From Sphingobacteriia bacterium (lineage in GTDB: Bacteria > Bacteroidota > Bacteroidia > Chitinophagales > Chitinophagaceae): 64,000 nucleotides of DNA. The notes beneath the pieces are model-generated. The model worked only from the letters and a program-made list of their open reading frames with translations, ran no database searches and was not told where the DNA came from. The position numbers and the translations under genes are program-made. The stretch lies in NCBI GenBank assembly GCA_015999745.1, contig JAECQP010000014.1, positions 1 through 64,000 on the forward strand. Reading direction: 5' to 3'. Shown here in pieces: positions 1 to 19,048 of the stretch (its first letter is position 1; each line of letters opens with the position of its first letter).

Positions 1-260
1 CCGAATGTCAGTTCTAGTTGTTGGTCAAAGGAAATATTACACCCTTTTATTGCTTTTTTCAGGAAGTCATAATAGTTGCGGTACCCTTCGCTTAGTATCG
101 TGGTTACAGGAAGAGCATGTCTAACTTTGTCATTCTCCCATTCCTCTTTTGGAATGCTGGTTACAAGCTTTACTATTAGACCCGGATAGTCAAATGAATC
201 ATTAAAAGGATTACATTCCTTATCGTCTTTGAGCAGTTTTCGGAGGCGGGATTGTTCCAT
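1..260 (-). CDS. hypothetical protein, partial (C-terminus beyond left window edge)
   Basis: Open minus-strand frame from ATG at 258-260 to the window edge, translating MEQSRLRKLLKDDKECNPFNDSFDYPGLIVKLVTSIPKEEWENDKVRHALPVTTILSEGYRNYYDFLKKAIKGCNISFDQQLELTF; absent from ORF track because incomplete; 37 bp downstream of the next minus-strand gene. Confidence 0.6.
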   Translation of the reverse strand, partial: MEQSRLRKLLKDDKECNPFNDSFDYPGLIVKLVTSIPKEEWENDKVRHALPVTTILSEGYRNYYDFLKKAIKGCNISFDQQLELTF

Positions 261-297
261 AATATAATTCCATAAACAACAACAAAATGAAATTTAC

Positions 298-1221
298 TCA
301 ACCAATCAATTTATGATGATCTCCAGTTAAGAACTGGTACGCAGCATTGATCGAATCAGGCTCAGCAGCTTTAGCCAAAACCAGATCTCCCAGCTTTCCC
401 ATAACTATCTGCCGCCAGTTCTTTTTATTCAAATGAAGGTAGAGTTCTTTGAGCTCTTCCATTTCGTTAAAAAGGATTTCATGCTCCACACCAGCTTTGA
501 CAAGCATCTCCACAACCTGGTCAATTTTCTGACAGACTTCTTCGTATCCTTCAGCAGAACCTTTGGGAATACGCTGCTCTTCCTTTGTCAATTGCTCCAG
601 GTATTTAATACCTTCGGTAGTAATAGATGCTGCAGCACCGGAAAGAACACCTAGCATGTTTACATAACCCATTTGTTCAAGCGATTTTGTTATTTCAAAT
701 GGCTCGTTATAGGTCCGCGGAGTAATGCCATTTGATTCTAAAATCCAGCGAATATCAAAGTAACCGCCAGTGCTTACTTTACTGAGTTTTTGAAGAATGA
801 ATATCTCTCTATCTTCCATGCCCATACTTGCCCGTTGGCCAAGATCAACCTCATCTGGATTTACCATGATGTCCGAAAACGATGCATTTCCAACCACTCC
901 CTTTAGTGAATGAATATAACCTTTGCAGGATTCTCTGAATTCCTTGATTTCTGCCTCAGTGGATTTTCGCGCTCCCACAATCTGGAACCCCGTTGCCTGT
1001 GTCTCCGTAAAATCCCGGACTAGCTCGTTATTCTCCTCCATGAAACAATGATTAAGATTCGTAATTGCTTCACGGTAACAATCCCACCTTTCCTGCCGGG
1101 CGGTCTGCAGTTCTTCAATATTATTTATCTGTCGTTGCTGAAGTACCTCAAATTTTTCAATTTGGGTTTGAACTGTGTCTTTGAATGCATCAAATGAACA
1201 GCTTAACTGGAATTCTTTCAT
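298..1221 (-). CDS. hypothetical protein: N-terminal coiled-coil-like region plus probable winged-helix segment
   Basis: 307-aa ORF; Gln/Glu-rich helical N-terminus; segment ILQKLSKVSTGGYFDIRWILESNGITPRTYNEPFEITKSLEQMGYVNML...SITTEGIKYLEQL looks like a winged helix; starts 9 bp after the upstream ATPase stop. Confidence 0.7.
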   Translation of the reverse strand: MKEFQLSCSFDAFKDTVQTQIEKFEVLQQRQINNIEELQTARQERWDCYREAITNLNHCFMEENNELVRDFTETQATGFQIVGARKSTEAEIKEFRESCKGYIHSLKGVVGNASFSDIMVNPDEVDLGQRASMGMEDREIFILQKLSKVSTGGYFDIRWILESNGITPRTYNEPFEITKSLEQMGYVNMLGVLSGAAASITTEGIKYLEQLTKEEQRIPKGSAEGYEEVCQKIDQVVEMLVKAGVEHEILFNEMEELKELYLHLNKKNWRQIVMGKLGDLVLAKAAEPDSINAAYQFLTGDHHKLIG

Positions 1222-1230
1222 ACTTGTTTG

Positions 1231-2664
1231 TTATATAAATAAGTTATCCATGGTTAGTTCACTTTGAATTAGCTTATTATAATAAGTATTTTTTGTAGTG
1301 CCATAAGTAGTGACCATCGTCAGGAATACTGTTTTTTTTGTTTTTGTGGAATTGATAAACACTTCCCGTTTTTGCTCAAGATCATCTGCATATTTATTAT
1401 TGATCGTATATGTTCCTGTTGAGAATTTCATCTCACAGATATTGATCGAACGATCATCACGGTCAAGCAGGAGATCAATCTGCGCGCCCGGCAGCCCTTT
1501 GCCGGGCACATGCCGCCAAATGGATTCTTCGACAACTGCACCTGTGATGCCAAGGGCTTGCTTTATTTGCCCAATATGTTTCAAGCAAATAGCTTCAAAT
1601 GCGAAGCCGCTCCAACTGCCCCAAGAGGCACTTTTACTGATACTAAGCCAGGTTCCTTTACCGCTGGCCTTTTTCTTATCCATATATTTTAGATAAAATA
1701 AAGAGTATTCATCTGAAAGACGACAGACAGTATCTTTTGATGTCTTACCAAAAGGAACATAACTATGTATAAATCCTGACTCTTCCAGTTCTGTTAACAC
1801 ATCACTGACCCATCCACCTGAACTTAATCCAGTTCCTTCAATTATTTCAGATCGTGTCAATCCCTTTGCCGTGTTAGCCAATAACCGGACAACAGTGATA
1901 TGGTTAGGCGAATGGTCGAATAAAGAAGAATACAGATTAGAAAATTCATCGATCAGGTAACCGTGCTGAGTGAAACACAACCGGTCAATTGCCACGGTAG
2001 CACTTTCACCTTTTTTAATCCCCGACAAATACTCAGGAATACCGCCCATTACCATATACAATTGCAACACCTGATACCGGTCAATGTTAATCAATTTACT
2101 TCGCAGATAGTCTTCTGTTTCTTTAAGTGTAAATGGAGATAGCCTCATACGAACTGTTACACGATTATGCAAACCACCCCTATCCTTTATGATTTTTTGA
2201 ATCATCCATGATGCCGCAGAACCACAAATCACAACAGTCAGATTCGGGTACTTGCTGGCCCATGTGTTCCAGAAATGATCGAAGGATTTGAGAAAATTTG
2301 ATTTTTGAGAATGTATCCAGGGGAACTCATCAAAAAAAATGACCACCCGCTTTTTGGTTACGATAGGAGTTAAGAAAGTCTCAAGCAGGTGGAATGCTGC
2401 AGACCAGTTCTTCGGTACAACAAGATCACCCGGACTGTTCGATGCCTTTTTTAACGCATGGCTGAAATTCTCCAATTGATCGGCCATCTTAGCATTGTGG
2501 ACTCCTGTAAATTCAAATATCAACTGTTTCTCATAGACCGACCTGACCAGGAAAGTCTTGCCTATCCTTCGTCTTCCATAGATTGCGATAAGTTCCGCCC
2601 TTGTGGAATCCAATGCATCTTCAAGGATCTTTTTTTCGGCTGTTCTGCCTACCATTTTTTCCAT
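1231..2664 (-). CDS. AAA+ ATPase (archaeal-type ATPase family with C-terminal DUF234-like domain)
   Basis: MVGRTAEKKILEDALDSTRAELIAIYGRRRIGKTFLVRSVYEK (Walker A GRRRIGKT), VVIFFDEFPW (Walker B). ORF track start at 2739 reads through the upstream palindromic repeat; the start at M26 (2664) is more plausible. Confidence 0.85.
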   Translation of the reverse strand: MEKMVGRTAEKKILEDALDSTRAELIAIYGRRRIGKTFLVRSVYEKQLIFEFTGVHNAKMADQLENFSHALKKASNSPGDLVVPKNWSAAFHLLETFLTPIVTKKRVVIFFDEFPWIHSQKSNFLKSFDHFWNTWASKYPNLTVVICGSAASWMIQKIIKDRGGLHNRVTVRMRLSPFTLKETEDYLRSKLINIDRYQVLQLYMVMGGIPEYLSGIKKGESATVAIDRLCFTQHGYLIDEFSNLYSSLFDHSPNHITVVRLLANTAKGLTRSEIIEGTGLSSGGWVSDVLTELEESGFIHSYVPFGKTSKDTVCRLSDEYSLFYLKYMDKKKASGKGTWLSISKSASWGSWSGFAFEAICLKHIGQIKQALGITGAVVEESIWRHVPGKGLPGAQIDLLLDRDDRSINICEMKFSTGTYTINNKYADDLEQKREVFINSTKTKKTVFLTMVTTYGTTKNTYYNKLIQSELTMDNLFI

Positions 2665-2695
2665 ACTCTTTTGTTGAAACTGATAGCCCTTATAT

Positions 2696-2732
2696 ATTTG
2701 GCGTACTTTGATAATACTAAACTCCGCCAAAT
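2696..2732. repeat. 37-bp palindromic repeat copy A upstream of ATPase
   Basis: ATTTGGCGTACTTTGATAATACTAAACTCCGCCAAAT; 8-bp terminal inverted repeats ATTTGGCG/CGCCAAAT. Confidence 0.85.
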
Positions 2733-2743
2733 GTACCACGTTT

Positions 2744-2794
2744 TATAGAGATTTGGCGAACTTTGACAACACTAAACTACGCCAAATCTCTATA
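2744..2794. repeat. Palindromic repeat copy B with 15-bp inverted arms
   Basis: TATAGAGATTTGGCGAACTTTGACAACACTAAACTACGCCAAATCTCTATA; arms TATAGAGATTTGGCG/CGCCAAATCTCTATA are exact reverse complements; the 37-bp core matches copy A with few differences, 55 bp apart. Confidence 0.85.
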
Positions 2795-2943
2795 TTTTAC
2801 CCTGAATTTGACGAATACATTTCATTACAAACGGGTCAAAACTGCCCATTGTGATAGTAAAAAGAAACAATTTAGCTATCTTTAGCAAGCTAGGCTTGCA
2901 AAAAGCAATAAACGTATTTCTATGATCAATAGAATAAAATAAA

Positions 2944-3168
2944 TCAAATAGAGATTCGAACAGCACTTTCAGAGATGCGCCTACCTACCTCTGAACGAAG
3001 AGATTCGCGGGTGAGCAGGCCTACCTCGCGGCCAAGTAAGGTTTCCAAATAGTCAGCCAGGTCAGCAAAATTGTTGTAACTCTTGTAACCGAGAGTAAAT
3101 TCTACCAAGAAGTCTACATCACTGTCGACCCGAATTTGCATGTTTTGTCGAAAAGATCCAAATAGCTC
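2944..3168 (-). pseudogene. Truncated MNT-type nucleotidyltransferase domain (N-terminus missing)
   Basis: Frame reads ELFGSFRQNMQIRVDSDVDFLVEFTLGYKSYNNFADLADYLETLLGREVGLLTRESL..., typical MNT GS...DxD region, preceded in frame by TGA (3169-3171); the N-terminal helix normally present in this family is missing. Confidence 0.6.
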
Positions 3169-3190
3169 TCAGTTGTGGATTTATGGGCAA

Positions 3191-3239
3191 GTAGGATCTA
3201 GCGCCGCGAGGCGTGTGGGTTCGACCCCCTCCATCCGCA
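3191..3239 (+). other. Partial tRNA-Leu(UAG)-like gene (3' half only), probable att-site scar
   Basis: gTAGGATCTAGCGCCGCGAGGCGTGTGGGTTCGACCCCCTCCATCCGCA: anticodon TAG, anticodon-stem 3' strand, class II variable arm (CGCC-GCGA-GGCG), T-loop TTCGACC, acceptor CATCCGC + A73. No matching D-arm or 5' acceptor (GCGGATG) upstream. Confidence 0.7.
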
Positions 3240-3264
3240 CACTGATAGATTTTCAATCGACTAT

Positions 3265-3294
3265 AAGAGACTCACTTTGTGGGTCTCTTTGTTT
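3265..3294 (+). terminator. Rho-independent terminator, probably of the original tRNA-Leu gene
   Basis: AAGAGACTCAC-TTT-GTGGGTCTCTT followed by TGTTTT. Confidence 0.65.
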
Positions 3295-3333
3295 TCTGAA
3301 GAAGAGATTATTAAAGCAAATCCGCCTGCTTCA

Positions 3334-5037
3334 TCATACACCCTTCGCCACCGGCAACCTGAATCCAAATGTGCTTCCTTCGCCCGGCTTGCTGCTCACC
3401 CAAACGCTGCCTCCCATGGCTTCTACAATTTCTTTACAGATCGCAAGCCCTATTCCGGACCCTTTCTTATCTGTTCTGCCCGGCACCTGGAAATATCGCT
3501 CGAAAATCCTGTCCTGGTACGCTAACTCAATTCCAGCCCCGTGGTCTGTAACAGAAAAACAGATCTCTCCTTCTTTTTCCGCTACATTCAATACAACGGT
3601 TCCACCTTCCGGTGAAAATTTAACCGCATTGGTAAAGAAATTATTTAAAACCCAGCCTATTTTATCCGGATCGGCCTCCGCATCCGGCAAAGCCTCCGCT
3701 ACATGTTTTTCAACAGTAATATTTTTTTCTTTCATAGCAGCCGACACCGCTTCCATGGAAGCATCAATGATTGAATAAGGACTTACCGGCTGATTGATCA
3801 ATTGCAGCCGCCCTGCTTCAACCTGGGACATGTTCAGTAATTCACTGAGGATACGGAGCATGCGCTGGTTGTCATTTTTCAGTTGTACGACCAACGCCTT
3901 CTGGTCGTCCGTAAGCTGCCCTACACGGGCGTCTTCCAGCAGCTTCAGGCTAAAGTCAGAAGAAGCCAGCGGCGTTTTGAGCTCATGGGATACGGCGGCA
4001 ATAAAGTTTGTTTTGGCAACATCCATTTCCTTAAACGAAGTAATATTTCTGAGCACAATTACTTTACTGGCAGAATCTCCCTGCTCTATCTGAACAGTCT
4101 CCCTGGTATAAAAATTCTCCTTTCCTTCCAATACGATTTTGAACGGCGCACTACTCTCGCTTTCGGTCAGAAATTTGAAAAGGTCATTCTGTGCACTTAA
4201 TGTACTTACCTGCTTCCCTACTGTATCCTCAGACCGCAGGCCCAGCAACCGCAATGCCTGTTGGTTTGCAAATAGAACAATATTGTTTTTATCAATCCCG
4301 ATGCTCGCATCTTTGAGGCTGTTAATGACAGCCTCCGCGCGTGATTTTTCAAAAATGAGCTTATTCAGGTTACTGTTTTCAAAGCCCTCCAGCCTTTCGC
4401 TCATCATATTAAAAGCTCCTGCCAGTTGACCAAATTCGTCCTGCTGTTCCAGGTGAATGCGATAGCGGTAATTCCGGGCCGATATTTCCCGGATCGCTTC
4501 CATCAGTTTTTCAATCGGGGTTACAACAACCGAAGGAAAATTAAATGCAAAGGTCAGCCCGATGATCAGACTCAACGATACGATTACCATGATAGTCGTA
4601 TATGCTTCCTCCGAGAAATGCAGGGCCTCTAAATTCTTCCGGTGGATGGCCGTCATATTCAGGGAAAGTATCCGGTGAATAGCCGACTTTGCCGCAACAT
4701 AATGCGCCTGCGGGTTATCCCCTTGTTTTATAGCCTCAAAAGCTATACGAACAGACCTGGTCGCATCTTTTTCACCTGGTTCCGTAATATTGTTTTCCTG
4801 CTCCCTGAGATTGTTTTCAAAACGTGCTAACACTTCTGCAGAATTACCGGGCATACTATCCAGCTCCAGGGTCATCGCTTCACAATAGCTCAATGATTCA
4901 TAATTATCTTTCAGTATATTCTCCGAAGCAGCGGTAAGTTTTAACTGGTAATAAATACTCAAACCACCGGAAAGCACCAGTAGCAGTAACAGGAACAAAG
5001 TCCCCAGCCTGATTTTACTTTTAATACTGACCGTCAT
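3334..5037 (-). CDS. Sensor histidine kinase (TM-HAMP-PAS-HisKA-HATPase), Kdp-operon associated
   Basis: HAMP-like VVTPIEKLMEAIREISARNYRYR; AAVSHELKTPLASS H-box; NNFFTNAVKFSPEGG N-box; overlaps the KdpD N-terminal gene stop by 1 nt. Confidence 0.9.
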   Translation of the reverse strand: MTVSIKSKIRLGTLFLLLLLVLSGGLSIYYQLKLTAASENILKDNYESLSYCEAMTLELDSMPGNSAEVLARFENNLREQENNITEPGEKDATRSVRIAFEAIKQGDNPQAHYVAAKSAIHRILSLNMTAIHRKNLEALHFSEEAYTTIMVIVSLSLIIGLTFAFNFPSVVVTPIEKLMEAIREISARNYRYRIHLEQQDEFGQLAGAFNMMSERLEGFENSNLNKLIFEKSRAEAVINSLKDASIGIDKNNIVLFANQQALRLLGLRSEDTVGKQVSTLSAQNDLFKFLTESESSAPFKIVLEGKENFYTRETVQIEQGDSASKVIVLRNITSFKEMDVAKTNFIAAVSHELKTPLASSDFSLKLLEDARVGQLTDDQKALVVQLKNDNQRMLRILSELLNMSQVEAGRLQLINQPVSPYSIIDASMEAVSAAMKEKNITVEKHVAEALPDAEADPDKIGWVLNNFFTNAVKFSPEGGTVVLNVAEKEGEICFSVTDHGAGIELAYQDRIFERYFQVPGRTDKKGSGIGLAICKEIVEAMGGSVWVSSKPGEGSTFGFRLPVAKGV

Positions 5038-6158
5038 TATGATAAGATTACAATGTCCACTTCATTGCGAGACAACATTTTCAATAATTGATTAAATACG
5101 TTCGTTTTCAAAAAAACCTGGAACAAATTAAAATGCGGTTTTCCTATACAAACAGTGGTGATCCCCCTGGCAATAACGGTATCCATAATTACTTTTGCCA
5201 CATCCTGCCCTTTTACCTGCACTATCTCTGCACCCAGTTCGGTCGCATTTTTGAAATTATTGATCAGGTGCCGCTGCACGGCAAGGGGTATTTTATCATT
5301 CGCCTCTTTCCCCTTTTGAACATACAACACAATCCACTGGCTGTTATAGTAAGATGCCAGCCTTGCCGTTTTACGAATCACCCGTTGTGCCGTTTCATGA
5401 TTGGACGAAATACATGCCAGGAACCTTTCATGCCGGTAAGCATCCTTCCTGGGCTTCACCTCATAATCTACCTTCCTTTCTACCTGGCCCGCTACCTCTT
5501 TTAATGCAAGTTCGCGTAATTGTAAGATTTTCTCCGGCTGAAAAAAATTGGCCAGCGCCTGCTGAACCTTGGCCGCATCATAAATTTTACCTTCTTTAAG
5601 GCGGGTAATCAGTTCATTTGCCGTAAGATCAATATTCACCACCTCATCCGCCACCTGCAGCATTTTGTCGGGTACCCTTTCATTTACCGTAACGCCGGTT
5701 ATCTTTCGAACGTCATCGTTGATACTTTCCAAATGCTGTATGTTCACCGCGCTGATTACATCTATTCCGGAATCCAGGATATCCAGTACATCCTGCCAGC
5801 GTTTTTCATGCTTACTGCCAGGTATATTCGCATGCGCAAGTTCGTCAATAATAACCACATCCGGATGCAGCAGTAAAACGGCCTGTACATCCAGTTCTTC
5901 CAGTCTTTTCCCTTTGTAAAATACTTCCCGGCGGGGGATTACAGGCAAGCCCTCCAGCAATGCTTCCGTTTCGGCACGTTGATGCGTTTCAATATATCCT
6001 ATTTTAATATTAACTCCGCTATCAAGCAGCCGGCGGGCTTCCTGGAGCATCCGATAACTTTTCCCCACACCCGCACTCATGCCGATATAGATTTTCAGCT
6101 TGCCTTTTCGCTCAGCTGCAAGTTTTTCCATCCACCTATTTGCCGCTTCGTTTCCCAT
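5037..6158 (-). CDS. kdpD: KdpD N-terminal sensor module (KdpD + Usp domains) lacking a kinase domain
   Basis: KLKIYIGMSAGVGKSYRMLQEARRLLDSGVNIKIGYIETHQRAETEALLEGL..., DELAHANIPGSKHEKRWQDVLDIL; Usp-like C-terminus ending DIVILS. Confidence 0.9.
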   Translation of the reverse strand: MGNEAANRWMEKLAAERKGKLKIYIGMSAGVGKSYRMLQEARRLLDSGVNIKIGYIETHQRAETEALLEGLPVIPRREVFYKGKRLEELDVQAVLLLHPDVVIIDELAHANIPGSKHEKRWQDVLDILDSGIDVISAVNIQHLESINDDVRKITGVTVNERVPDKMLQVADEVVNIDLTANELITRLKEGKIYDAAKVQQALANFFQPEKILQLRELALKEVAGQVERKVDYEVKPRKDAYRHERFLACISSNHETAQRVIRKTARLASYYNSQWIVLYVQKGKEANDKIPLAVQRHLINNFKNATELGAEIVQVKGQDVAKVIMDTVIARGITTVCIGKPHFNLFQVFLKTNVFNQLLKMLSRNEVDIVILS

Positions 6159-6163
6159 ATCTT

Positions 6164-7243
6164 TTAAAAAGCAATCATGAATGCCGTAGATGCAAAGAAG
6201 TTATTGGCAACGGCCTGTGAATTATCTCTCAGGAAAATTTTATCCCTGCCGGAGAAATTGCGGGCCTCTATTCGCCATGTTGCGTTTGCATTGATATAAA
6301 CGTCGAAATTGGCGGACAAGCCCCATACCTGGAATCCATTGACCGTTCCGGAAGAAATGAGTACGCCCTGTTTATCTGAATAATATTCCACCCTTGCCGC
6401 CAGGCTCGTTTTTTCCGAAGTATTCAACTTCAGTATCAGAACAGGGCTATACCATGTATTCATCCTGGCAGAACCTTTGGATGCCTGTTCCATACCGGCA
6501 TCCAGCCCTACTGTTGCAGCCAGCGCCCTGTTTAACTGGAATATTCCATAGAAGTTATGAAAATAACGCATTCGTTTCAGGCTGTCCGGTTGATCGTTTC
6601 CGATGAATGTACTGCTGTTCAAAGTTACCCCCTGGTTTGGCTTCCAGGTTACCTGGGTGCCAAATGCAGGTGTAGTGTTGCCATCCGGGCGGTGAATGCG
6701 TTGCCATCCATTCAGGATCAACCCTGCAAAATACCATTTGCCGTCCGGGGTGGTATATGCCAACCTGAGCCCTGCTTCATAATAAGGAGAGTTTTCGGCC
6801 AGTAAACTCCGGGAAAGGTTCCAGCAGTCTTTGCCTGCAGCGCTTTCAAAGCCGATATGAGAGGCAAAAATGCCGGCATCTGCCCAGAGCTCGCTTTTCC
6901 GGGAAAGCTTTACGCCCGCATTGGCCTCATACAGGTTCCTGAATACGCCCTGCTCCGCTGAAAGATTTGCATTCATATAGGTTCCTGCCGCCAGCGCCAG
7001 GTTGGCCCGGACAGCTCCGTTTGCATAAGCCGCTTTCAGGTAACCCAGGTTCAGGGTAACTTCCCCCGACCTGTTGTGGCTGTATAAAAAGCCGGGCCTC
7101 AAATGATTCGCAGAACCATTAAAATCCTTTACATAATACAATTCGGCGTACCCGCTGAAACTAACCGGGTTTCCCTGAGTGGAATCCTGGGCTTTTGCCT
7201 CCATGAACACAGGCAAAAGCATTAAGAGTATATACTTTTTCAT
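6164..7243 (-). CDS. Putative outer-membrane beta-barrel (porin-like) protein in kdp operon
   Basis: Signal peptide MKKYILLMLLPVFMEAKAQ; aromatic/amphipathic strand pattern; ends with aromatic F; ATGA overlap with kdpC. Confidence 0.8.
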   Translation of the reverse strand: MKKYILLMLLPVFMEAKAQDSTQGNPVSFSGYAELYYVKDFNGSANHLRPGFLYSHNRSGEVTLNLGYLKAAYANGAVRANLALAAGTYMNANLSAEQGVFRNLYEANAGVKLSRKSELWADAGIFASHIGFESAAGKDCWNLSRSLLAENSPYYEAGLRLAYTTPDGKWYFAGLILNGWQRIHRPDGNTTPAFGTQVTWKPNQGVTLNSSTFIGNDQPDSLKRMRYFHNFYGIFQLNRALAATVGLDAGMEQASKGSARMNTWYSPVLILKLNTSEKTSLAARVEYYSDKQGVLISSGTVNGFQVWGLSANFDVYINANATWRIEARNFSGRDKIFLRDNSQAVANNFFASTAFMIAF

Positions 7244-7803
7244 TTTTCTTTACTTAATTGATCTAAAGCAATATTTATTGTAAGAACATTGATCTTTTCG
7301 ATACCGTTTATTGATTTTTCTACACTACGTTGAACAAGCAACATCACCTGTTCACGGGGTAGTTTCCGCACATCTGCTATTCTGCTAACCTGTACAATGG
7401 CCGATTTCAGAGAAATATCCGGATCCAGTCCGCTGCCGCTTGCAGTAACAAGATCTGAAGGTATCTCCCCTTTTTGAACAGTAGGGTTATGCACCACAAA
7501 ACTATCAATCCTGTCCCGTACCATCTTCAGATAGTCGGGATTGGAAGGCCCTTTATTGCTTCCGGAGCTTCCTGCTGCGTTATATCCGGCTGCCGAGGGT
7601 CGCCCCTGGAAATAACGGTCCCAGGTAAAACTTTGTCCTTCCAGCAGGTACCCTGCTGTTCGCCCGTTTGCCACAACAGTCTGCCCCTCGCCCCCGGCAG
7701 GCGCTGCCTTGGCAATGAGAAAAATCAGGGTGGGGTAAGCTACCATGAATAACAAAATGCAGGCAATGGTTAAGCGTATGGCGGGAATAATATGTTGTTT
7801 CAT
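7240..7803 (-). CDS. kdpC: K+-transporting ATPase subunit C
   Basis: Typical KdpC: GYLLEGQSFTWDRYFQGRPSA...SGSNKGPSNPDY...VTASGSGLDPDIS. Confidence 0.95.
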   Translation of the reverse strand: MKQHIIPAIRLTIACILLFMVAYPTLIFLIAKAAPAGGEGQTVVANGRTAGYLLEGQSFTWDRYFQGRPSAAGYNAAGSSGSNKGPSNPDYLKMVRDRIDSFVVHNPTVQKGEIPSDLVTASGSGLDPDISLKSAIVQVSRIADVRKLPREQVMLLVQRSVEKSINGIEKINVLTINIALDQLSKEK

Positions 7804-7821
7804 GTTGTATAAAATTTAAGT

Positions 7822-9870
7822 TTAAAACCAGTTGCTCACTATTAAATCAATCAATTTGATACCGGCAAATGGCACAATGATACCGCCAAGACCATAGATC
7901 AGCAGGTTCCTTCTCAGCAGTGCACTCGCTCCGATTGGTTTATAGGAAACCCCGCGCAAAGCCAGGGGAATAAGCAACGGAATAATAATTGCGTTAAAAA
8001 TTACGGCGGAAAGTATGGCGCTTTCCGGGCTGTGGAGTTGCATAATATTCATTCCCTGTAATGAGGGTAATGATGCAATAAACAATGCAGGAACAATCGC
8101 AAAATATTTAGCCACATCATTGGCAATTGAGAAAGTAGTGAGTGTGCCCCTTGTCATCAGTAACTGCTTCCCGATCTCCACTATCTCGATCAGTTTTGTC
8201 GGATCATTATCCAGGTCAACCATATTACCAGCTTCCCTGGCAGCCTGCGTTCCGCTATTCATGGCCACGCCCACATCCGCCTGGGCCAACGCCGGGGCGT
8301 CATTCGTACCATCCCCCATCATGGCCACCAGCTTTCCGGATTGTTGTTCTTTCCGGATATAATTCATTTTATCTTCCGGCTTTGCTTCTGCAATATAATC
8401 ATCAACCCCGGCCTTGTTGGCTATATACTTTGCCGTTAATGGATTATCACCGGTAACCATCACCGTTTTTACGCCCATTTTTCTCAATCGTTCAAAACGT
8501 TCCCGGATGCCCGGTTTAATGATGTCCTGCAATTCAATCACCCCCAATACCTGTTCGTTTTCACTCACAACAAGCGGAGTACCACCCTCCGCTGCAATCT
8601 GCTTTACCAGGGATTCTGCCTCTTTAGGAAATGGATTTCCAGCCTTGCAAACAATATCCCTGATAGCATCCGCTGCTCCTTTCCTGATACGGGTTTGTGC
8701 AAAATCAATTCCCGAGCTCCTTGTTTCCGCCGAAAAAGGAATGAATGTTGCGTGTTGAACCTGGTGATCCGCCGGGTTCTTACCGGAAAGCTCTATAATG
8801 GATTTCCCTTCAGGTGTTTCATCGGCAAGGGATGCCTGCACAGCGGCCTTTACAAACTGCGCCTTCGTAACACCCTGTACCTCGTAAAAATGGGTGGCTT
8901 TACGGTTTCCGATCGTAATGGTACCAGTCTTATCGAGCAGGAGTGTGTCCAGGTCACCGGCGGTCTCTACCGCTTTACCGCTCTTCGTGATTACATTCGC
9001 TCTCAGGGCCCGGTCCATTCCCGCTATACCAATTGCAGAAAGCAATCCACCGATTGTAGTCGGAATCAGGCAAACAAACAATGAAATAAACGCAGCTATT
9101 GTGATGGGGGTGTTGGCATAATCGGCAAATGGTTTTAGCGTAACACAAACAATAATGAACACAAGGGTAAACCCGGAAAGCAGAATTGTCAGTGCAATCT
9201 CATTCGGCGTTTTCTGCCTGCTTGCTCCTTCCACAAGTGCAATCATCTTATCCAGGAATGATTCGCCGGGCGCGGTGGTAACCCTTACCCTTATTCTGTC
9301 GGACAGTACTTTTGTTCCACCGGTTACAGATGATTTATCCCCACCGGCTTCCCGGATCACCGGTGCAGACTCCCCGGTAATTGCAGACTCGTCGATGGTG
9401 GCCAGCCCCTGCACGATCTCCCCGTCTATTGGAATGATATCCCCTGCTTCACATAGAAAGAGGTCATCTTTCCGGAGTTGGGAGGAAGGCACCAGTTTAA
9501 TTTCTTCCACAAAAATATCACCCGGGGTCTGTATGTATTTAGCAGGTGTTTCCGCTCTTGTTTTTCGCAAAGAGCTGGCCTGGGCCTTGCCTCGCGCTTC
9601 CGCAATTGCTTCCGCAAAATTGGCGAACAGTAAGGTCACCAGGAGGATTGCCGTAATAATTATATTGTAAGTCAGGCTTCCCTGCGAGGTTGTTCCGCCG
9701 GCTGCAATCCAGATACAAACGGCCGTCATTACGATCGTTCCTACCCAAACCGTGAACATCACAGGGTTCCGGAACATGGCCTGGGGTTTTAGTTTGATAA
9801 ATGACTGTTGAAGCGCCTCTCTGAAAAGGCTGCGGTCAAAAAATCCTTTTTTTATATTATGCTTAGACAT
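7822..9870 (-). CDS. kdpB: K+-transporting P-type ATPase subunit B
   Basis: [11 protein letters not shown] phosphorylation motif; [48 protein letters not shown]. Confidence 0.98.
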
Positions 9871-9880
9871 ATAATCTGTT

Positions 9881-11581
9881 TTATTTCATTCCAAAATATT
9901 CTGCAATAGGGCCCAGCGACAAGGCAGGGAAAAAACTCAATGCCGCTATGATAACAATGACAGCAAATACCATGATCCCAAAAGTGGCGGTATCGGTTTT
10001 GAGTGTTCCGGCGCTTTCAGGAACATATTTTTTTGCAGACAACATGCCGGCTATCGCTATCGGCCCTATAATAGGCAGGTACCTGGACAACAACATCACT
10101 ATGCCGCAACTGATATTCCAGAACGGGGTATTGTCTCCCAAGCCCTCAAATCCACTGCCATTATTGGCGGATGAAGAAGTATATTCATACAACATTTCAC
10201 TGAACCCGTGACTGCCGGGATTATTGAGCCAGCTTGCATATACTTCCGGGTTATGCGCATAGAGATAAGAAGACAAAGCCGTTCCCGCAAGTATCAGTAA
10301 AGGATGCAGCAAGGCGATCATCGCCGCTATCTTCATTTCCCCGGCTTCCACTTTTTTACCAAGAAACTCCGGCGTACGCCCTACCATGAGCCCGCTGATA
10401 AAAACAGCTATTATGATGAATATGTAGAAGTTGAGGAACCCCACTCCCACGCCTCCGTAAATTGCATTGATCATCATCCCCAGCATGGCAAACATCCCTG
10501 TGAGCGGGGTCAGGCTATCATGCATGGCATTAACGGAACCATTGGATGTTGCGGTTGTTGTTATGGCCCAGAAGGCAGAAGCTACCGAACCGAACCGCAC
10601 TTCCTTGCCCTCCATACTTCCCATCGGCTGGGATATTCCCATCCGGGCAATAGCCGGATTACCGGCTGATTCCTGGTAAATGGAAGGTATCAGCAATAAG
10701 AGAAACCCAACCGTCATTACACCAAATACCATCCATGCAAACCTTTTCCTTTTCAGGATATATCCAAGCGCAAAGATCATCGCAATCGGAATCAGGATAA
10801 TAGCTATGTTCTCTACAATATTGGTAACATAGTTCGGGTTTTCCAGCGGGTGCGCCGAATTCACGCCGAAAAAGCCCCCGCCATTGGTGCCCAGTTGTTT
10901 AATGGCTACCATTGCTGCAGCCGGCCCCCTGGATACATGCACCGTATCTCCCTGCAGCGACACAAACTGATCCTTTCCTTTGAATGTCATTGGTGTGCCG
11001 TTCACTAATAAAATGACAGCCACTGCAATAGACAAAGGAAGCAATACCCTCGTACAGCTTTTAACAAAAAAATGATAGAAATTGCCCAATTTGCCCGTAG
11101 TTCCTTCCCGCATAGCCAGGAACACTACGGCACAGGCCGCCATTCCTATTCCGGCGCTGATAAACTGAAAAAGCATCAATACCAACTGCCCCAGGTACGA
11201 AACACCGGTCTCTCCGCTGTAGTGCTGGAGGTTGGTATTGCTCACAAAACTCACGGTGGTGTTAAATGCCAGGTCTGCACTCATAGAAGGGTTGGCATCC
11301 GGGTTCAACGGCAACCAGCTCATATTCATCAGCACGAACATGGAAAAGAAAAACCACAACAGATTGATGGTCAGCAATGCCGCCAGATGCTGTTTCCAGC
11401 TCATTTCCCTGGACGGGTCTATTCCGGAGAATTTGAATATTGCTTTATCCAACGGGTTGAACAGTCTATCTGCCCATGTCCGGTCTCCCGAGTAAATCTT
11501 ACCGATGTATCGCCCAAGGGGAAGGGCCAGTAGTACGGCACCAATGAACATCATAATGATGCCTGAAATTTCCATGGTCAT
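9881..11581 (-). CDS. kdpA: K+-transporting ATPase subunit A
   Basis: KdpA selectivity-filter regions e.g. [57 protein letters not shown]. Confidence 0.97.
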
Positions 11582-11584
11582 TGT

Positions 11585-11662
11585 TTAAAATTTTTCAGGT
11601 TTAACTAATACATAGCAGAGGTATACAAATACCAGTACCGCTATCACAAATAAGTAGATCAT
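11585..11662 (-). CDS. kdpF: KdpF small membrane subunit (25 aa)
   Basis: Not in ORF track (short). Translates MIYLFVIAVLVFVYLCYVLVKPEKF*; immediately upstream of kdpA. Confidence 0.85.
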   Translation of the reverse strand: MIYLFVIAVLVFVYLCYVLVKPEKF

Positions 11663-11684
11663 ATCATTTGGTTTGTTACAGGCA

Positions 11685-11701
11685 GGCCAAAAAGATGCCA
11701 G
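11685..11701 (-). promoter_or_regulatory. Candidate sigma-54 (-24/-12) promoter of kdp operon
   Basis: Minus strand CTGGCATCTTTTTGGCC retains GG-N10-GC and the TGGCA element, 22 nt upstream of kdpF ATG; adjacent gene encodes a sigma-54 activator. -12 element imperfect (TGGC vs TTGC). Confidence 0.45.
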
Positions 11702-11790
11702 CAACAAACCAAACGGGCATAAAACCTGAAAAACCTTACCGGATATGCATTATAACAGGAACAATCCCCGAACGGGTACAGGGCTGAATG

Positions 11791-11823
11791 AAAAAGACCC
11801 TTCCATTTTGGAAAGGTCTTTTT
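11791..11823. terminator. Inverted repeat/terminator between the sigma-54 regulator and kdp operon
   Basis: AAAAAGACCCTTCCATTTTGGAAAGGTCTTTTT; stem with one mismatch and A/T flanks on both strands. Confidence 0.65.
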
Positions 11824-11839
11824 CATTTTGGCAGACAAA

Positions 11840-13255
11840 TCAGATATGATACTCTTCCATTTTCCGGTACAGGGTGGTAAGGCCAATACCTAACAACTCC
11901 GCTGTTTTTGTTTTATTCCCTTTTGTATGCTCCAATACTTTCCGGATATGCATTTTTTCTACCTCCGCCAGTGATAAACCCCGGGATAAGGAATTGTCCT
12001 GTTGCTGAATATCATAAGGGAGTTGAGCCGGCAATATAGCTGTATCATCGGCCAGTATAGCCGCTCTTTCCAGCACGTTTTTCAACTCCCGTATATTCCC
12101 TTTCCATTGGTTTTGTTTCAGGAGTTGCAGAGAGTCGGGGTGGAGCCTAAACAAAGCCCCCCCTTCCTTTAAGGCATATTTGGCTAAAAAATGACTGGCT
12201 AATGCAGCTATATCTTCACTTCGTTCACGTAAAGCCGGAAGGCAGATCGTAAAGCCGTTAATACGGTAATATAAATCCGCCCTAAAGCGCCCGTTTTCGA
12301 TTTCCGCTTCCAGATCTCTGTTCGTAGCCGCAATAATCCGGATATCCACTTTGGTTGCTTTTTCATCACCCAGCCTGATGAATTCTCCGTTCTCCAGTAC
12401 CCGAAGCAGTTTTGCCTGCAGCTCAATATTCATTTCCCCGATCTCATCGAGAAAAAGAGTTCCTTTATCTGCTAATTGAATGAGCCCTTTTTTCTCTCTG
12501 GAAGCGCCGGTATAGGCCCCTGCCTTATAACCAAACAACTCTCCTTCCAGGAGATCCCTGGTAAATGCGCTGCAATTGATCGCTATAAATGCCTGTTCCG
12601 CTCTCTTTCCGGCGGCATGTATTGCACCGGCAAACACTTCCTTACCTGTACCGGTCTCTCCCAGAAGCAATACGCTATTATCAGTTGCCGCAATCCGCCT
12701 GGCCAGGTTAATCGCATTTTTAATCAGGGGGCTATTTCCGATAATATCTTCAAATTGATATCCACCATTTTTTTTAATACGGATGGCTGCTTTTTTTTCT
12801 GCGTTAATTTTATTGGCGGCCTGGTGAAGAAGGGGGATAATACGATCATTGTCATTCCCCTTTGTAATATAATCAAAGGCTCCGTTCTTGATCGACTGCA
12901 CCCCGTCTGCAATATTTCCGTATGCAGTCAATAAAATACATTCGAGCGCCGGAAATTCATGCCTGACCTGTTTTACAAAATCAACACCGCTTCCATCGGG
13001 CAGCTTAACATCGCATAACACTATATCAATGGCTTTATGCTGCAAAACAGATAAGCCTGATTTCAGTGTCCCCGCCTCCTCTACTATAAACCCCTCCAGG
13101 CCGATTAATCTTGCCAGCAGCTTACGCAAAGGCGCTTCATCATCTATAAGCAGTATATTCAAGTTTTTTTCTAAAATTAAACATTCTATCCTACTAATAT
13201 CCGGATTAAAAGATATTAGACAATTAAGTACATTCATGTTCAGAACCGGAAGCAT
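11840..13255 (-). CDS. Sigma-54-dependent response regulator (receiver-AAA+-Fis HTH; NtrC family)
   Basis: NILLIDDEAPLRKLLARL receiver; GETGTGKEVFAGAIH, GELFGYKAGAYTGA (GAFTGA-type loop), C-terminal HTH GNKTKTAELLGIGLTTLYRKMEEY. True start may lie downstream of 13255. Confidence 0.93.
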   Translation of the reverse strand: MLPVLNMNVLNCLISFNPDISRIECLILEKNLNILLIDDEAPLRKLLARLIGLEGFIVEEAGTLKSGLSVLQHKAIDIVLCDVKLPDGSGVDFVKQVRHEFPALECILLTAYGNIADGVQSIKNGAFDYITKGNDNDRIIPLLHQAANKINAEKKAAIRIKKNGGYQFEDIIGNSPLIKNAINLARRIAATDNSVLLLGETGTGKEVFAGAIHAAGKRAEQAFIAINCSAFTRDLLEGELFGYKAGAYTGASREKKGLIQLADKGTLFLDEIGEMNIELQAKLLRVLENGEFIRLGDEKATKVDIRIIAATNRDLEAEIENGRFRADLYYRINGFTICLPALRERSEDIAALASHFLAKYALKEGGALFRLHPDSLQLLKQNQWKGNIRELKNVLERAAILADDTAILPAQLPYDIQQQDNSLSRGLSLAEVEKMHIRKVLEHTKGNKTKTAELLGIGLTTLYRKMEEYHI

Positions 13256-13258
13256 CGT

Positions 13259-14497
13259 ATGAGTAACCTGGCAGCAAAGTCAACAAAAGCAGACCGCCCT
13301 CTTCCCAAAAGCGTCCTGGCCGGGTATTCCGCCCAAAACAAGGTTACACTGGTGCGTGGGGGCAAGGATTATTTCGACCTGCTGCTAAGCATGATCAACC
13401 GGGCTGTCCATACCATTCACCTGCAAACCTATATTTACGACGACGATGAAACCGGTAAAATGGTGGCTGAAGCCTTAAAGGCTGCCGCCAAAAGAAACGT
13501 AGCTGTTTTTCTGATGGTAGACGGTTATGCTTCACAAATCCTTTCCACTGCTTTTATCCATGAGTTGAAAGCGGCAGGGATCCGCTTTCGTTTTTTTGAG
13601 CCCTTATTCAAAAGCCGGAATTTTTATTTCGGGAGAAGAATGCATCACAAAATACTGGTAACGGATGCCCGATACGCCATTACCGGCGGCAGCAATATCG
13701 CCGATCGGTACAACGACATGCCCAATAGTCCGGCCTGGCTGGATTATACAGTATATGTGGAAGGAGAAGTGGCCAGGGAACTCTGCATATTGTGCCAGCG
13801 AACCTGGAGAGGTTTTCCGACCGAAATGAATACCAGCGCCTGTGCGTTAAGCCCGGAAGTTTTTCACTTTCCGGATCAGGAAACCAGCAAAGTAAGGATG
13901 CGGCGCAACGACTGGGTAAGAAGAAAAAATGAGATCTCCAATACCTATATTGAAATGTTAGCCTATGCCCAAACGCATATCACCATCCTTTGCAGTTATT
14001 TCTTACCAGGGAGGGCCATTACCCGTTTATTAAAAAGTGCAGCAAAAAGAGGTATCGAGATCAAGGTGATCACTGCCGGCAGGTCCGATATCATGATCTC
14101 TAAACATGCAGAACGCTGGTTATACGACATGCTGCTCCGGTATAACATAAAAATATACGAATACCAGCCGGCCATCCTGCACGCTAAGCTTGCATCCTGC
14201 GACGGGGAATGGGTGACCATCGGCTCCTATAATGTAAACAATATCAGTGCCTACGCCAGCCTGGAACTGAACCTGGATATCAGGAACAACGTCTTTGCCG
14301 CCAGCGTGGAAGAAGAACTGAAGGTTCTGATTGAAAATAACTGTATTCCTATTACCGCAGAACTCCATTCCCACAAAACCAACCTGTTCATCCAGTTTTT
14401 TCGCTGGGTCTGCTACCATACCATCAGCCTCATTTTTACAATGGTTACTTTTTATTATAAAAGAATCGACCCTTCCGGTATCCGGAAAACTGATTAA
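13259..14497 (+). CDS. Phospholipase D / cardiolipin synthase family protein
   Basis: Two HKD motifs: HHKILVTDARYAITGGSNIADRY and HAKLASCDGEWVTIGSYNVN. Confidence 0.92.
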   Translation: MSNLAAKSTKADRPLPKSVLAGYSAQNKVTLVRGGKDYFDLLLSMINRAVHTIHLQTYIYDDDETGKMVAEALKAAAKRNVAVFLMVDGYASQILSTAFIHELKAAGIRFRFFEPLFKSRNFYFGRRMHHKILVTDARYAITGGSNIADRYNDMPNSPAWLDYTVYVEGEVARELCILCQRTWRGFPTEMNTSACALSPEVFHFPDQETSKVRMRRNDWVRRKNEISNTYIEMLAYAQTHITILCSYFLPGRAITRLLKSAAKRGIEIKVITAGRSDIMISKHAERWLYDMLLRYNIKIYEYQPAILHAKLASCDGEWVTIGSYNVNNISAYASLELNLDIRNNVFAASVEEELKVLIENNCIPITAELHSHKTNLFIQFFRWVCYHTISLIFTMVTFYYKRIDPSGIRKTD

Positions 14498-15300
14498 ATA
14501 CATTTAAGCTGCCCCACGAGGTTTCGCTTCAGTTGATTTTTTTGTACCACACAAATATCTCTCAACCGTTCCAGTCCTTTTTTTTCGGTTGCCGGCAAAC
14601 CCTTCAGGTGGAAAGCATTCAACAGGCGGATTTCAGTGGCCAGATCCTGGAATTTCCCCAGTTCATCCAGCAGGGAATTGAATGAATTCTGTGAAATTTC
14701 CGCCGGCAGTTTTTCTTTTTTCGCTGCAATGCCTGCTGCATCTGTTGCATTGATGTTGTAATACAGGTCTTTCAGCAGTTTCCTGATCTGGTGAATATTG
14801 GTATCGGTAAACTTCCCCAAATTTACCAGTTGTCGCACTGCATCCTGTTGTTGCTTTACATATCGGTGGAACTGCTTCTTTGAGAAAGAATCCGGAAGAG
14901 ACCGCATTGTTTTTTTTACATCCGCAGCAATGATGGTTTCAGCAAATCCCGCACGCAGTTCCTTTTTAAGAAGCGCTGTTTGTTGTTTTAAATGAAGCAA
15001 GTAGGTTCCGGGGGGTCGTTGCTGACCACGGTATGCGTTTTGGAGTTGTCGCCGGTGCAATTGCAAATCCCTGATAGAACCGCAAAGGCGGTAAGTTGCT
15101 TTGAGTTGCTTCGTTACCGGCATCTGCGCAGGTGCGGCTTCCCGGCTCATTGTCATTCGCAGGAAAGCACGCAGTTTTTTATAGTTTACCCTGAACTGAT
15201 GAATGGATGTTACTCCATAGCCCGGCAACAGCTGTTGGTAATAAAGCTTCAGTTCATGGTAATAACCCTTCACCACCCGCCTTATCTGCTTTTTGTTCAT
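14494..15300 (-). CDS. CHAD domain-containing protein
   Basis: IHQFRVNYKKLRAFLRM and second IHQIRKLLKDLYY: conserved HxxR...K(R) CHAD repeats. Confidence 0.85.
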   Translation of the reverse strand: MNKKQIRRVVKGYYHELKLYYQQLLPGYGVTSIHQFRVNYKKLRAFLRMTMSREAAPAQMPVTKQLKATYRLCGSIRDLQLHRRQLQNAYRGQQRPPGTYLLHLKQQTALLKKELRAGFAETIIAADVKKTMRSLPDSFSKKQFHRYVKQQQDAVRQLVNLGKFTDTNIHQIRKLLKDLYYNINATDAAGIAAKKEKLPAEISQNSFNSLLDELGKFQDLATEIRLLNAFHLKGLPATEKKGLERLRDICVVQKNQLKRNLVGQLKCI

Positions 15301-15334
15301 AGGGTAATTTGTCTTAAATTTAATACATATTATT

Positions 15335-16357
15335 ATGATACCCTATTCTGCTGCAATTCCTGCCAGAAACCGCGTTCTGTCGGTCATCTTCAGTCAAATG
15401 GCAGATTGCTATCGCTATCTGGGGAACGAAGAACGCTTTCGGGCCATTGCCTACGATAACGTTGCCAAAACGTTGTTGAATATGAAGGAGGATATTATTG
15501 CCTACAACAATAACCTTCCCGCACTGGACAACATCAGGGGCATCGGAGAAAGCATTGCTGAAAAAATCATAGAGTTTCTGCATACCGGGCAAGTGCACAC
15601 ATTTGAGGAGCTCAAAAAAAAGGTTCCTTTTGAATTACTAGAGCTGATGCATGTGAACGGGATCGGTGCGGCTACACTAAGGGTACTGCACGAATCTCTC
15701 GGTATTCGCAATAAAGAGGAATTGATTACCGCATTGCAAACGCACCAGCTGGAAAAAGTAAAGGGATTTGGGCAGCAGAAAATAGAAAACCTTCAACGGG
15801 CGCTCAAGCTGTACAGGGAAAGTAAACGCATGTTGCTGAAAGATGCGCTCAAAATCGGGAATGATATTATCAACTGCATCAGAAAAATTCCGGGCGTTGA
15901 ACAGGCGTCCCTTGCAGGAAGCCTGCGCAGAAAAAAAGACACCATCGGCGATATTGATATTGTCATTGAAGCTGAACCCCGAAAGCGTAAGCGGATTATT
16001 GAACAGTTCGTTAAACTACCCACTATAAAACGGATACTGGTGAAAGGCCCCACCAAAGTAAGTGTATTGCTTCTCAAAGGAGATGTTCAGGTAGACTGCA
16101 GGCTGGTAAGCAAAGATGAATTTGGAGCGGCCCTGCTCTATTTCACCGGCAATAAAGAACATAATATCAAACTCAGGACCCTTGCAAAAGAGCGGGGATA
16201 TAAGATCAATGAGTACGGAATCTTCCATCTTAAAACCCACCGGAAAATGGCGGGGGCCACAGAAGAAGACATGTATGCATTTTTACAGATGAAATTTATT
16301 CCCCCGGAGCAACGGCTCAACAAAGGGGAAATAGAACAGGCCGTGATCCGCAAATAA
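15335..16357 (+). CDS. DNA polymerase X family (HhH + PolX palm/thumb), lacking PHP domain
   Basis: N-terminal 8-kDa/HhH IRGIGESIAEKIIEFL, VNGIGAATLRVL, GFGQQKIENL; palm GDIDIVIEA and VQVDCRLV catalytic Asp residues; thumb EYGIF...PPEQRLNKGEIE; ends where PHP would start. Confidence 0.85.
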   Translation: MIPYSAAIPARNRVLSVIFSQMADCYRYLGNEERFRAIAYDNVAKTLLNMKEDIIAYNNNLPALDNIRGIGESIAEKIIEFLHTGQVHTFEELKKKVPFELLELMHVNGIGAATLRVLHESLGIRNKEELITALQTHQLEKVKGFGQQKIENLQRALKLYRESKRMLLKDALKIGNDIINCIRKIPGVEQASLAGSLRRKKDTIGDIDIVIEAEPRKRKRIIEQFVKLPTIKRILVKGPTKVSVLLLKGDVQVDCRLVSKDEFGAALLYFTGNKEHNIKLRTLAKERGYKINEYGIFHLKTHRKMAGATEEDMYAFLQMKFIPPEQRLNKGEIEQAVIRK

Positions 16358-16383
16358 AATGTACTTCGCACCGGCAGCACCCA

Positions 16384-17394
16384 TCAATTTCCCCTGACCC
16401 GTCGCATCAACGATTCTACAGTTTCCAGGTTCCATCCCCTGAATCTTCCCCGCTGTACCACCAGTTTATTGTCGTTGCGGTGATTCAGGAAAAAATGGAA
16501 CACAAATCTTCCCCGCTTCGATTGCCACCCAAGCATCTGCCCAAAACGGAGGTCATTGAACACCAGCGTATCGCCCCATTTTTCCACTGTATAGAACTGT
16601 TGCGAAAAACGGATCAATTGATCTACATCCCGGTGATCATGCACTTCTTTCAGCAGGGAATCATTGCGCGAAAAAAATTCAAACTCCATTTGCTTCCCGG
16701 TATCAAATACCGAATGAAACCCTACATAATAGCCGGTATCGGTTCCTGCTACCACATACCATAACCAGTTTTGTAACGGCGCCGGCGTGCTCAGGTAACG
16801 GGTGTACGCTATCTTTTGCGCTTTAAACACCTGTTTGATCTCCTGGTCGGTCTGGTATTTATTGAACAAACAATACAGGAGATATACGGCACTCATGCCT
16901 AATCCAAACCGCCACCAGTTTTTTCGTAGCGCCGACCTTCTCCCCAGGTATATGAGTACAAGGCAGGCGACCAGCGACCAGATGGAGAACAGGGGATCTG
17001 CTACATAAATGGCATTGAAGGAAACCCGGTAATGACTGAAGGGTTCGAACCAGCCAACCCCGTAATTATTAAAGGCATCAATAAAGATATGCAGGAAGAT
17101 GGCCGTACCAAAGAACCCCATCCAGGGCCAGAACCGGATATTATGCGGCCGGTGTAATTTTTCCGCCAGCATGGCTAACAAGGGCGTAAGGATAGCACAA
17201 AAAAGAAATGAGTGCGTAAAGCCCCGATGCGCCAGCAGATTAGCGGAGGTTTCCATCCAGAATGCCGAAACAAAATCTATATCCGGGATACTTTGCGCCA
17301 TCGCGCCCCAGAGCATCGCTTTTTTGCCCAGTTTTTTTCCGGCAAAGGCCTCGCCCATACAGGCTCCCAGGGCTAGATGGGTGAAAGAATCCAT
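16384..17394 (-). CDS. Membrane-bound metal-dependent hydrolase (YbcI/DUF457-like)
   Basis: MDSFTHLALGACMGEAF... HRGFTHSFLF... HIFIDAFNNYG. Confidence 0.85.
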   Translation of the reverse strand: MDSFTHLALGACMGEAFAGKKLGKKAMLWGAMAQSIPDIDFVSAFWMETSANLLAHRGFTHSFLFCAILTPLLAMLAEKLHRPHNIRFWPWMGFFGTAIFLHIFIDAFNNYGVGWFEPFSHYRVSFNAIYVADPLFSIWSLVACLVLIYLGRRSALRKNWWRFGLGMSAVYLLYCLFNKYQTDQEIKQVFKAQKIAYTRYLSTPAPLQNWLWYVVAGTDTGYYVGFHSVFDTGKQMEFEFFSRNDSLLKEVHDHRDVDQLIRFSQQFYTVEKWGDTLVFNDLRFGQMLGWQSKRGRFVFHFFLNHRNDNKLVVQRGRFRGWNLETVESLMRRVRGN

Positions 17395-17641
17395 ATTTCA
17401 GCGCATTTGTTTATCCATTTCAAGGTACTTTAAAAGGTACAAAATGTTCTCCGGCGCAGTAAAAAACCCGGCATTTTAATCCCTCAACAGGGATTTCGAA
17501 ATAAAAACCGGGATACTCTTTTCCATCAAAAAACATAAAAAGATGATTATCAGCATGTTAAATTCAAATTGCGAGCCTTCCGGCATAGGCCGGCAAACCA
17601 GTAAAACCCGCTTTAGGGGCGGTTCTTATATACGAATCCCT

Positions 17642-17680: not shown

Positions 17681-19048
17681 ATGGCTACTATTACCAGAGA
17701 AAACATTGGCTTATTGAACGATAAGCTTTCCGTTACCCTTACCAAAGAAGATTATTATGCAGGTTTTGAAAAGAGCCTGAAGCAATATGCAAAAACTGCC
17801 AATATCCCCGGATTCAGAAAGGGAATGGTTCCTACCGGGCTGGTAAAGAAAATGTATGGCCAGAGCGTATTTACCGATGAGGTACTGCGCACCATGGAAA
17901 CCGAACTGAACCAATACATGACCAAGGAAGCCATCGACATTTTTGCGCAGCCCCTGCCCCTCCAAAACGATGCAACCGGTCTGGATATGAACAATCCGGC
18001 TGAATATACTTTCTCTTTTGAAATTGGACTGAAGCCTGTTTTTGATCTGGATATCAGCGGCGTTAAAGTGACCCGTTATGTAATTGATGTTACCGATACC
18101 ATGGTGGAGGAGGAAATTGCCCGCCTGCAAACCAGGTTTGGTAAAATGACAGAGCCTGAATCTGTAAACGCAGAAGAGAATGTGCTGAATGTTACTTTCA
18201 CTGAAACAGATGAGAATGGGAATGCAATTGAGAACGGCGTTACCAAAGACAACTCCTTACTGGTAAAATACTTTACGGAGAAATTCAGAGAAAACCTGAT
18301 GGGTAAGAAAGTGAACGATGTGGTAAACCTGCAGATCAGCAAAGCCTTCGACGATAAAGAAGCGGAAACCATCCTGGCGGACCTGGGATTAACCAAAGAA
18401 GACGGCAACCGTTACTTCAATATCCTGATCACAAAAGTAGGACTGGTTGAAAAGGCTGAATTGAACGAAGAATTCTTCCTGGCGGCCTTTCCTGATAACG
18501 ATGCTATTAAAACTGAAGCTGATCTCAGAAACGAAATCAAAACGGAAATTGAAAAATACTACGAGCAATCTGCACGTAACCAGATCCACGATCAGATCTA
18601 CCACCAATTGGTAGACCATGTGAAGATGGATTTACCGGAGAGCTTCCTGAAGCGCTGGCTGCAAACCGGTGGCGAAAAAACTAAAACAGAAGAAGAGGCT
18701 GCCGGCGAATATCCAGGCTTTGCCAATCAGCTGAAGTGGACCCTGGTCAGCAGTAAACTAAGCGCTGATAACAAGATTGAAGTACTCCCTGAAGATATCC
18801 GCAACTTTGCAAAAATGCAATTGTTCAGCTATATGGGTGGCCAACTAGGCGCCATGGGCGATAACCAGCAATGGATTGAAGACTATGCCAACAGAATGAT
18901 GCAGGATAAGAAATTTGTAGAGGACAGCTACCACCGCATCAATGCCGAGAAATTATTCGGAGCGCTGGAAACACAGGTAACTGCCAAAGACCAGCCCATC
19001 AGTGTGGAAGATTTTACTAAAATTGTTGAAAGTCATCACCATCATTAA
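17681..19048 (+). CDS. tig: Trigger factor
   Basis: FKBP/trigger factor organisation; N-terminal ribosome-binding region YAKTANIPGFRKGMVPTGLVKKMYG; natural HHHH C-terminus. Confidence 0.95.
   Translation: MATITRENIGLLNDKLSVTLTKEDYYAGFEKSLKQYAKTANIPGFRKGMVPTGLVKKMYGQSVFTDEVLRTMETELNQYMTKEAIDIFAQPLPLQNDATGLDMNNPAEYTFSFEIGLKPVFDLDISGVKVTRYVIDVTDTMVEEEIARLQTRFGKMTEPESVNAEENVLNVTFTETDENGNAIENGVTKDNSLLVKYFTEKFRENLMGKKVNDVVNLQISKAFDDKEAETILADLGLTKEDGNRYFNILITKVGLVEKAELNEEFFLAAFPDNDAIKTEADLRNEIKTEIEKYYEQSARNQIHDQIYHQLVDHVKMDLPESFLKRWLQTGGEKTKTEEEAAGEYPGFANQLKWTLVSSKLSADNKIEVLPEDIRNFAKMQLFSYMGGQLGAMGDNQQWIEDYANRMMQDKKFVEDSYHRINAEKLFGALETQVTAKDQPISVEDFTKIVESHHHH

Follow-up and report, generated by a model that had tools for sequence, protein, structure and literature searches.

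A tRNA-Leu(UAG) 3′ half as the probable attachment scar of a degraded genomic island lacking an integrase gene

A short stretch of DNA at positions 3192-3242 of the window (the whole 64,000-nucleotide stretch of DNA analyzed here) is, with a probability that we put at roughly 0.93, the distal attachment scar of a 7.8-kb genomic island, island A, inserted into the tRNA-Leu(UAG) gene. The scar itself lies on the + strand. Over 51 bp it is 100% identical, in direct repeat, to C25:35685-35735, where the same genome has the 3′ part of an intact tRNA-Leu(UAG) gene, and we read it as the distal att copy (attR).

The scar and its intact counterpart

Window positions 3192-3239 correspond to positions 35-82 of tRNA-Leu(UAG), and the match extends to 3242; the fragment therefore starts at the first anticodon base (T) and ends 3 nt beyond the discriminator A. 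This bears out the first-pass annotation, which had read a tRNA-Leu(UAG) 3′ half from the anticodon onward. The 5′ half of the tRNA is absent at the fragment, and neither ARAGORN nor Rfam called a tRNA there when the window was searched, as expected because only the 3′ half is present. The match has an E value of 1.8e-20 in the 3.03-Mb genome, and a search with two pieces of the fragment, allowing up to three mismatches, gave 0 chance matches in 100 shuffles. A chance origin of the match is excluded. To the right of the scar, a terminator-like hairpin followed by a T-rich run lies at about 3265-3289 (+ strand, z = -2.6), where a terminator had also been noted from the sequence.

A T:T mismatch in the T-stem had been taken to mean that the fragment is decaying. 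That idea did not survive comparison: no base of the fragment differs from the intact gene, and the same mismatch sits in this functional gene and in that of 23 genus relatives, 19 of which are identical over all 82 bases. In three other relatives (G011, G017, and G036), the T-stem is paired.

Base 1 of contig C69 is the first base of the window, and contig C25 ends 4.6 kb beyond the intact tRNA-Leu(UAG) gene (C25:35651-35732). The last 63 bases of C25 and the first 63 of C69 agree at 62 of 63 positions, with one mismatch; there is no comparable match to this overlap elsewhere in the genome, and the reading frame of a 670-aa protein stays open across the join. On the strength of the overlap and the open frame, we joined the two contigs computationally and regard them as probably adjacent. 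Homologues of the 670-aa protein, sought for an independent test of the join, were absent from 199 genomes of the order. In the joined contigs, the two att copies are 7.8 kb apart and enclose 7.76 kb of DNA with a GC content of 39%, compared to 47% in the left flank and 46% in the right flank. At the left end of the joined island the intact gene is encoded on the + strand, and the displaced fragment is in direct orientation relative to it, an arrangement that rests on the C25/C69 join. Two predictions made from the window alone, that the element lies to the left of the fragment and that an intact + strand tRNA-Leu(UAG) gene with the same 3′ sequence would be found at its other end, thus hold across the join.

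Gene content of island A

The left-hand part of island A occupies C25:35736-40369 and, through the 63-bp overlap, the right-hand 3.2 kb would occupy window positions 1-3191. Adjoining the tRNA is a gene for an excisionase-like HTH_17 protein (L033:10940-11260), followed by a truncated ORF related to an ORF of the relative G032 and by the remnant of a LytTR response regulator. The island continues with ORFs lacking a family assignment and the gene of the 670-aa protein, also of no assigned family, whose N-terminal part is encoded at 1-260 (- strand) and which continues onto C25 (L033:13555-15369). Next come a 307-aa protein with no Pfam or PADLOC family (298-1221, - strand) and an AAA ATPase (ATPase_2, PF01637; 1231-2739, - strand) with a full-length match to the PADLOC phage-defence candidate PDC-S27 (E = 5e-200). 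Upstream of the ATPase gene, a long inverted repeat with TTTGGCG-like arms spans 2694-2787; a weak Rfam miRNA match to the same interval is surely due to chance. At the scar lies a 5′-truncated nucleotidyltransferase gene (NTP_transf_2; PDC-S09; 2944-3168, - strand) of 74 codons, where most homologues have open frames of 106-119 aa; its product lacks the N-terminal part, and the homology ends about 24 bp short of the att copy. A related nucleotidyltransferase is encoded on C1, between a tRNA-Met gene and an integrase gene.

The first-pass annotation had expected an integrase gene beside the intact tRNA-Leu(UAG). It is absent: PF00589 had no match on C25 or C69, the best tblastn matches of the G032 integrase in the joined region (E = 0.11 and 0.49) are not meaningful, and neither an integrase nor a recognizable remnant of one was found in island A. 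We therefore file island A as a degraded island and not as an active one. As no relaxase, type IV secretion, or Tra families were found among its ORFs, it was also rejected as an integrative and conjugative element.

Integrases and a related element in G032

In the relative G032, the arm on the tRNA-Leu(UAG) side (contig C120) is 92% identical over 140 bp, tRNA included, to the corresponding arm of island A. The HTH_17 ORF and the next ORF follow the tRNA in the same order in both and are homologous. Beyond these two ORFs, C120 carries a DUF4138 gene, which we take to be of the TraN type of Bacteroidetes conjugative elements. On a second G032 contig (C293), a tRNA-Leu 3′ half that begins 2 nt earlier, in the same anticodon loop, lies 187 bp from a PF00589 integrase gene, with tig about 250 bp off on the other side; C120 and C293 presumably bound one element. 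Nine integrases more distantly related to that of G032 were inspected by eye: a tRNA 3′ part adjoins the gene clearly in six and probably in a seventh, and these 3′ parts appear to begin at the anticodon loop. Members of this integrase family therefore seem to target the anticodon loop. A relative of the G032 integrase (58% identity) adjoins an intact tRNA-Leu(TAA) gene and not a 3′ fragment (L103:1767-1853); its contig, titled Lactobacillales, may have been binned wrongly.

The five integrases of the genome under study were considered as close kin of the G032 integrase and rejected, since they gave no match or weak partial matches with 19-42% identity. Three of them, on C54, C49, and C1 (L118, L119, and L120), each have tRNA genes about 2 kb away or closer (Ser-GGA on C54, Pro-TGG and Ser-GCT on C49, and Met on C1), so further tRNA islands in this genome are likely.

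We propose that a tyrosine integrase would have catalyzed a crossover at the anticodon loop between the tRNA gene and an element carrying its own copy of the tRNA 3′ part and a terminator. The incoming 3′ part would have restored the tRNA, giving the intact gene on C25, and the previous chromosomal 3′ part would have been carried away to 3192, at the opposite end of the island. The source element was probably a relative of the conjugative element that occupies this site in G032. It has since lost its integrase and any transfer genes, leaving the excisionase-like HTH gene, the truncated ORF that belongs to the same left-end module, and cargo among which are defence-candidate genes. As island A has no integrase gene, we infer the catalyst. 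The order of events relative to the kdp genes to the right of the scar is likewise an inference. The inner flank of the scar is unlike the integrase-side flank in G032 and cuts the nucleotidyltransferase gene, and the right end has therefore undergone rearrangement, either in the course of integration or later.

The tRNA-Leu(UAG)-tig interval and alternative origins of the scar

The distance from tRNA-Leu(UAG) to the start of tig is 80-150 bp in 21 genus genomes, which provide empty sites for comparison, and in those examined over longer stretches the downstream gene order is collinear with the window from 17.7 kb onward. The tig gene (trigger factor; 17681-19048, + strand) is thus the native right-hand neighbor of the tRNA in the genus, and not the kdp histidine kinase region, as had been supposed at first. 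Between the scar and tig lies a 14-kb block, block B (3296-17575; the right limit is approximate, and no tRNA scar is found there), with genes for a kdp histidine kinase, KdpD, further kdp genes, a sigma-54-type regulator, and PLD-like, CHAD, DNA polymerase beta-like, and YdjM proteins. Since tig directly follows tRNA-Leu in the 21 genus genomes, all of which lack block B between the two genes, the kdp block is extra DNA at this place too. Other genes follow tRNA-Leu in G003, G013, and G008; a 68% homologue of the block B PLD gene occurs in G003, within a different block that is also located after tRNA-Leu. In G034, a single contig holds tRNA-Leu and tig 5.4 kb apart without any tRNA fragment, which shows that genes are also gained at this site without leaving an att scar; between the two lies one open frame of 1763 codons, which probably encodes a surface protein (L090:376-5664). 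No relative lacking island A alone was found. Island A and the extra kdp block share one site, and the genus has an insertion hot spot between tRNA-Leu(UAG) and tig.

The presence of block B also allows a refinement of the island A reading, which we advance tentatively. The fragment and terminator could be the left arm of an older element, comprising block B with its kdp genes, that was pushed away when island A was later inserted at the same tRNA; the fragment would then mark two boundaries, with island A ending and the older insertion beginning there, and the older insertion would have lost its distal scar near tig. Such a tandem array fits the absence of block B from the 21 empty sites, and the sequence to the right of the scar is closer to the tRNA-side arm of G032 (z = 8.9) than to the terminator at the empty site of G026 (z = 4.3). 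Fragment and terminator region together are 84% identical over 104 bp, tRNA 3′ part included, to the tRNA-side arm of the G032 element, in which a similar hairpin follows the tRNA. Against it stand the host-like GC content of block B (46%), the absence of a second tRNA 3′ copy near tig or the right end of block B when up to three mismatches are allowed, and the scarless gain in G034. A wider proposal, in which the interval is used repeatedly and keeps stacked, integrase-less islands that integrases of related conjugative elements mobilize in trans, strikes us as rather doubtful.

Two other explanations were weighed. If the tRNA 3′ end had been copied by segmental duplication, without site-specific recombination, the lack of an integrase in the island would fit, yet we consider this highly improbable: the repeat spans the anticodon loop through the 3′ end, is identical and direct, and flanks low-GC DNA, and in G032 the same boundary recurs within 2 nt beside an integrase gene. 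That the fragment serves as a functional split tRNA half or is expressed as a small RNA is scarcely credible. The terminator-like hairpin after it would suit such a role, but the intact tRNA-Leu(UAG) gene is present, a genome-wide tRNA-Leu search revealed no separate 5′ half, and displaced fragments are a standard by-product of integration (PMC4383910, PMC9897764).

Read as the scar of island A, the fragment belongs to an ordinary, well-described kind of genomic-island scar, with a textbook mechanism. NBU1 of Bacteroides has been reported to use a tRNA-Leu site, and our literature search gave no direct match to a named Bacteroidetes element in tRNA-Leu. Compared to the G032 element, island A shares the tRNA-Leu(UAG) target, the crossover loop, the 92% arm, and the HTH_17 and following ORFs in place, whereas G032 still has an integrase next to its scar as well as the TraN-type DUF4138 gene, neither of which is found in island A with its different cargo. 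The 3919 islands described with Islander, of which 2083 have an anticodon-centred crossover (the commonest subsite) and 3760 a 3′ fragment, provide a close parallel as a class (PMC4383910). Like them, island A has an intact, regenerated cognate tRNA gene at one end, a displaced tDNA fragment in the same orientation at the other (given the C25/C69 join), a crossover at a known subsite, the anticodon loop, which is also that of G032, and an empty site in relatives; unlike them, it has no integrase gene inside and so would not pass the filter of the Islander algorithm. In Pyrococcus yayanosii, PYG1 is likewise flanked by a partial and a complete tRNA copy as 44-bp direct repeats, although that island belongs to another domain of life, uses tRNA-Gln, and is larger (about 21 kb) (PMC9897764). 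These results map the boundary of the island precisely, with an empty-site comparison, and show the tRNA-Leu(UAG)-tig interval to be an insertion hot spot in the genus and the kdp block of the window to be lineage-specific at this place.
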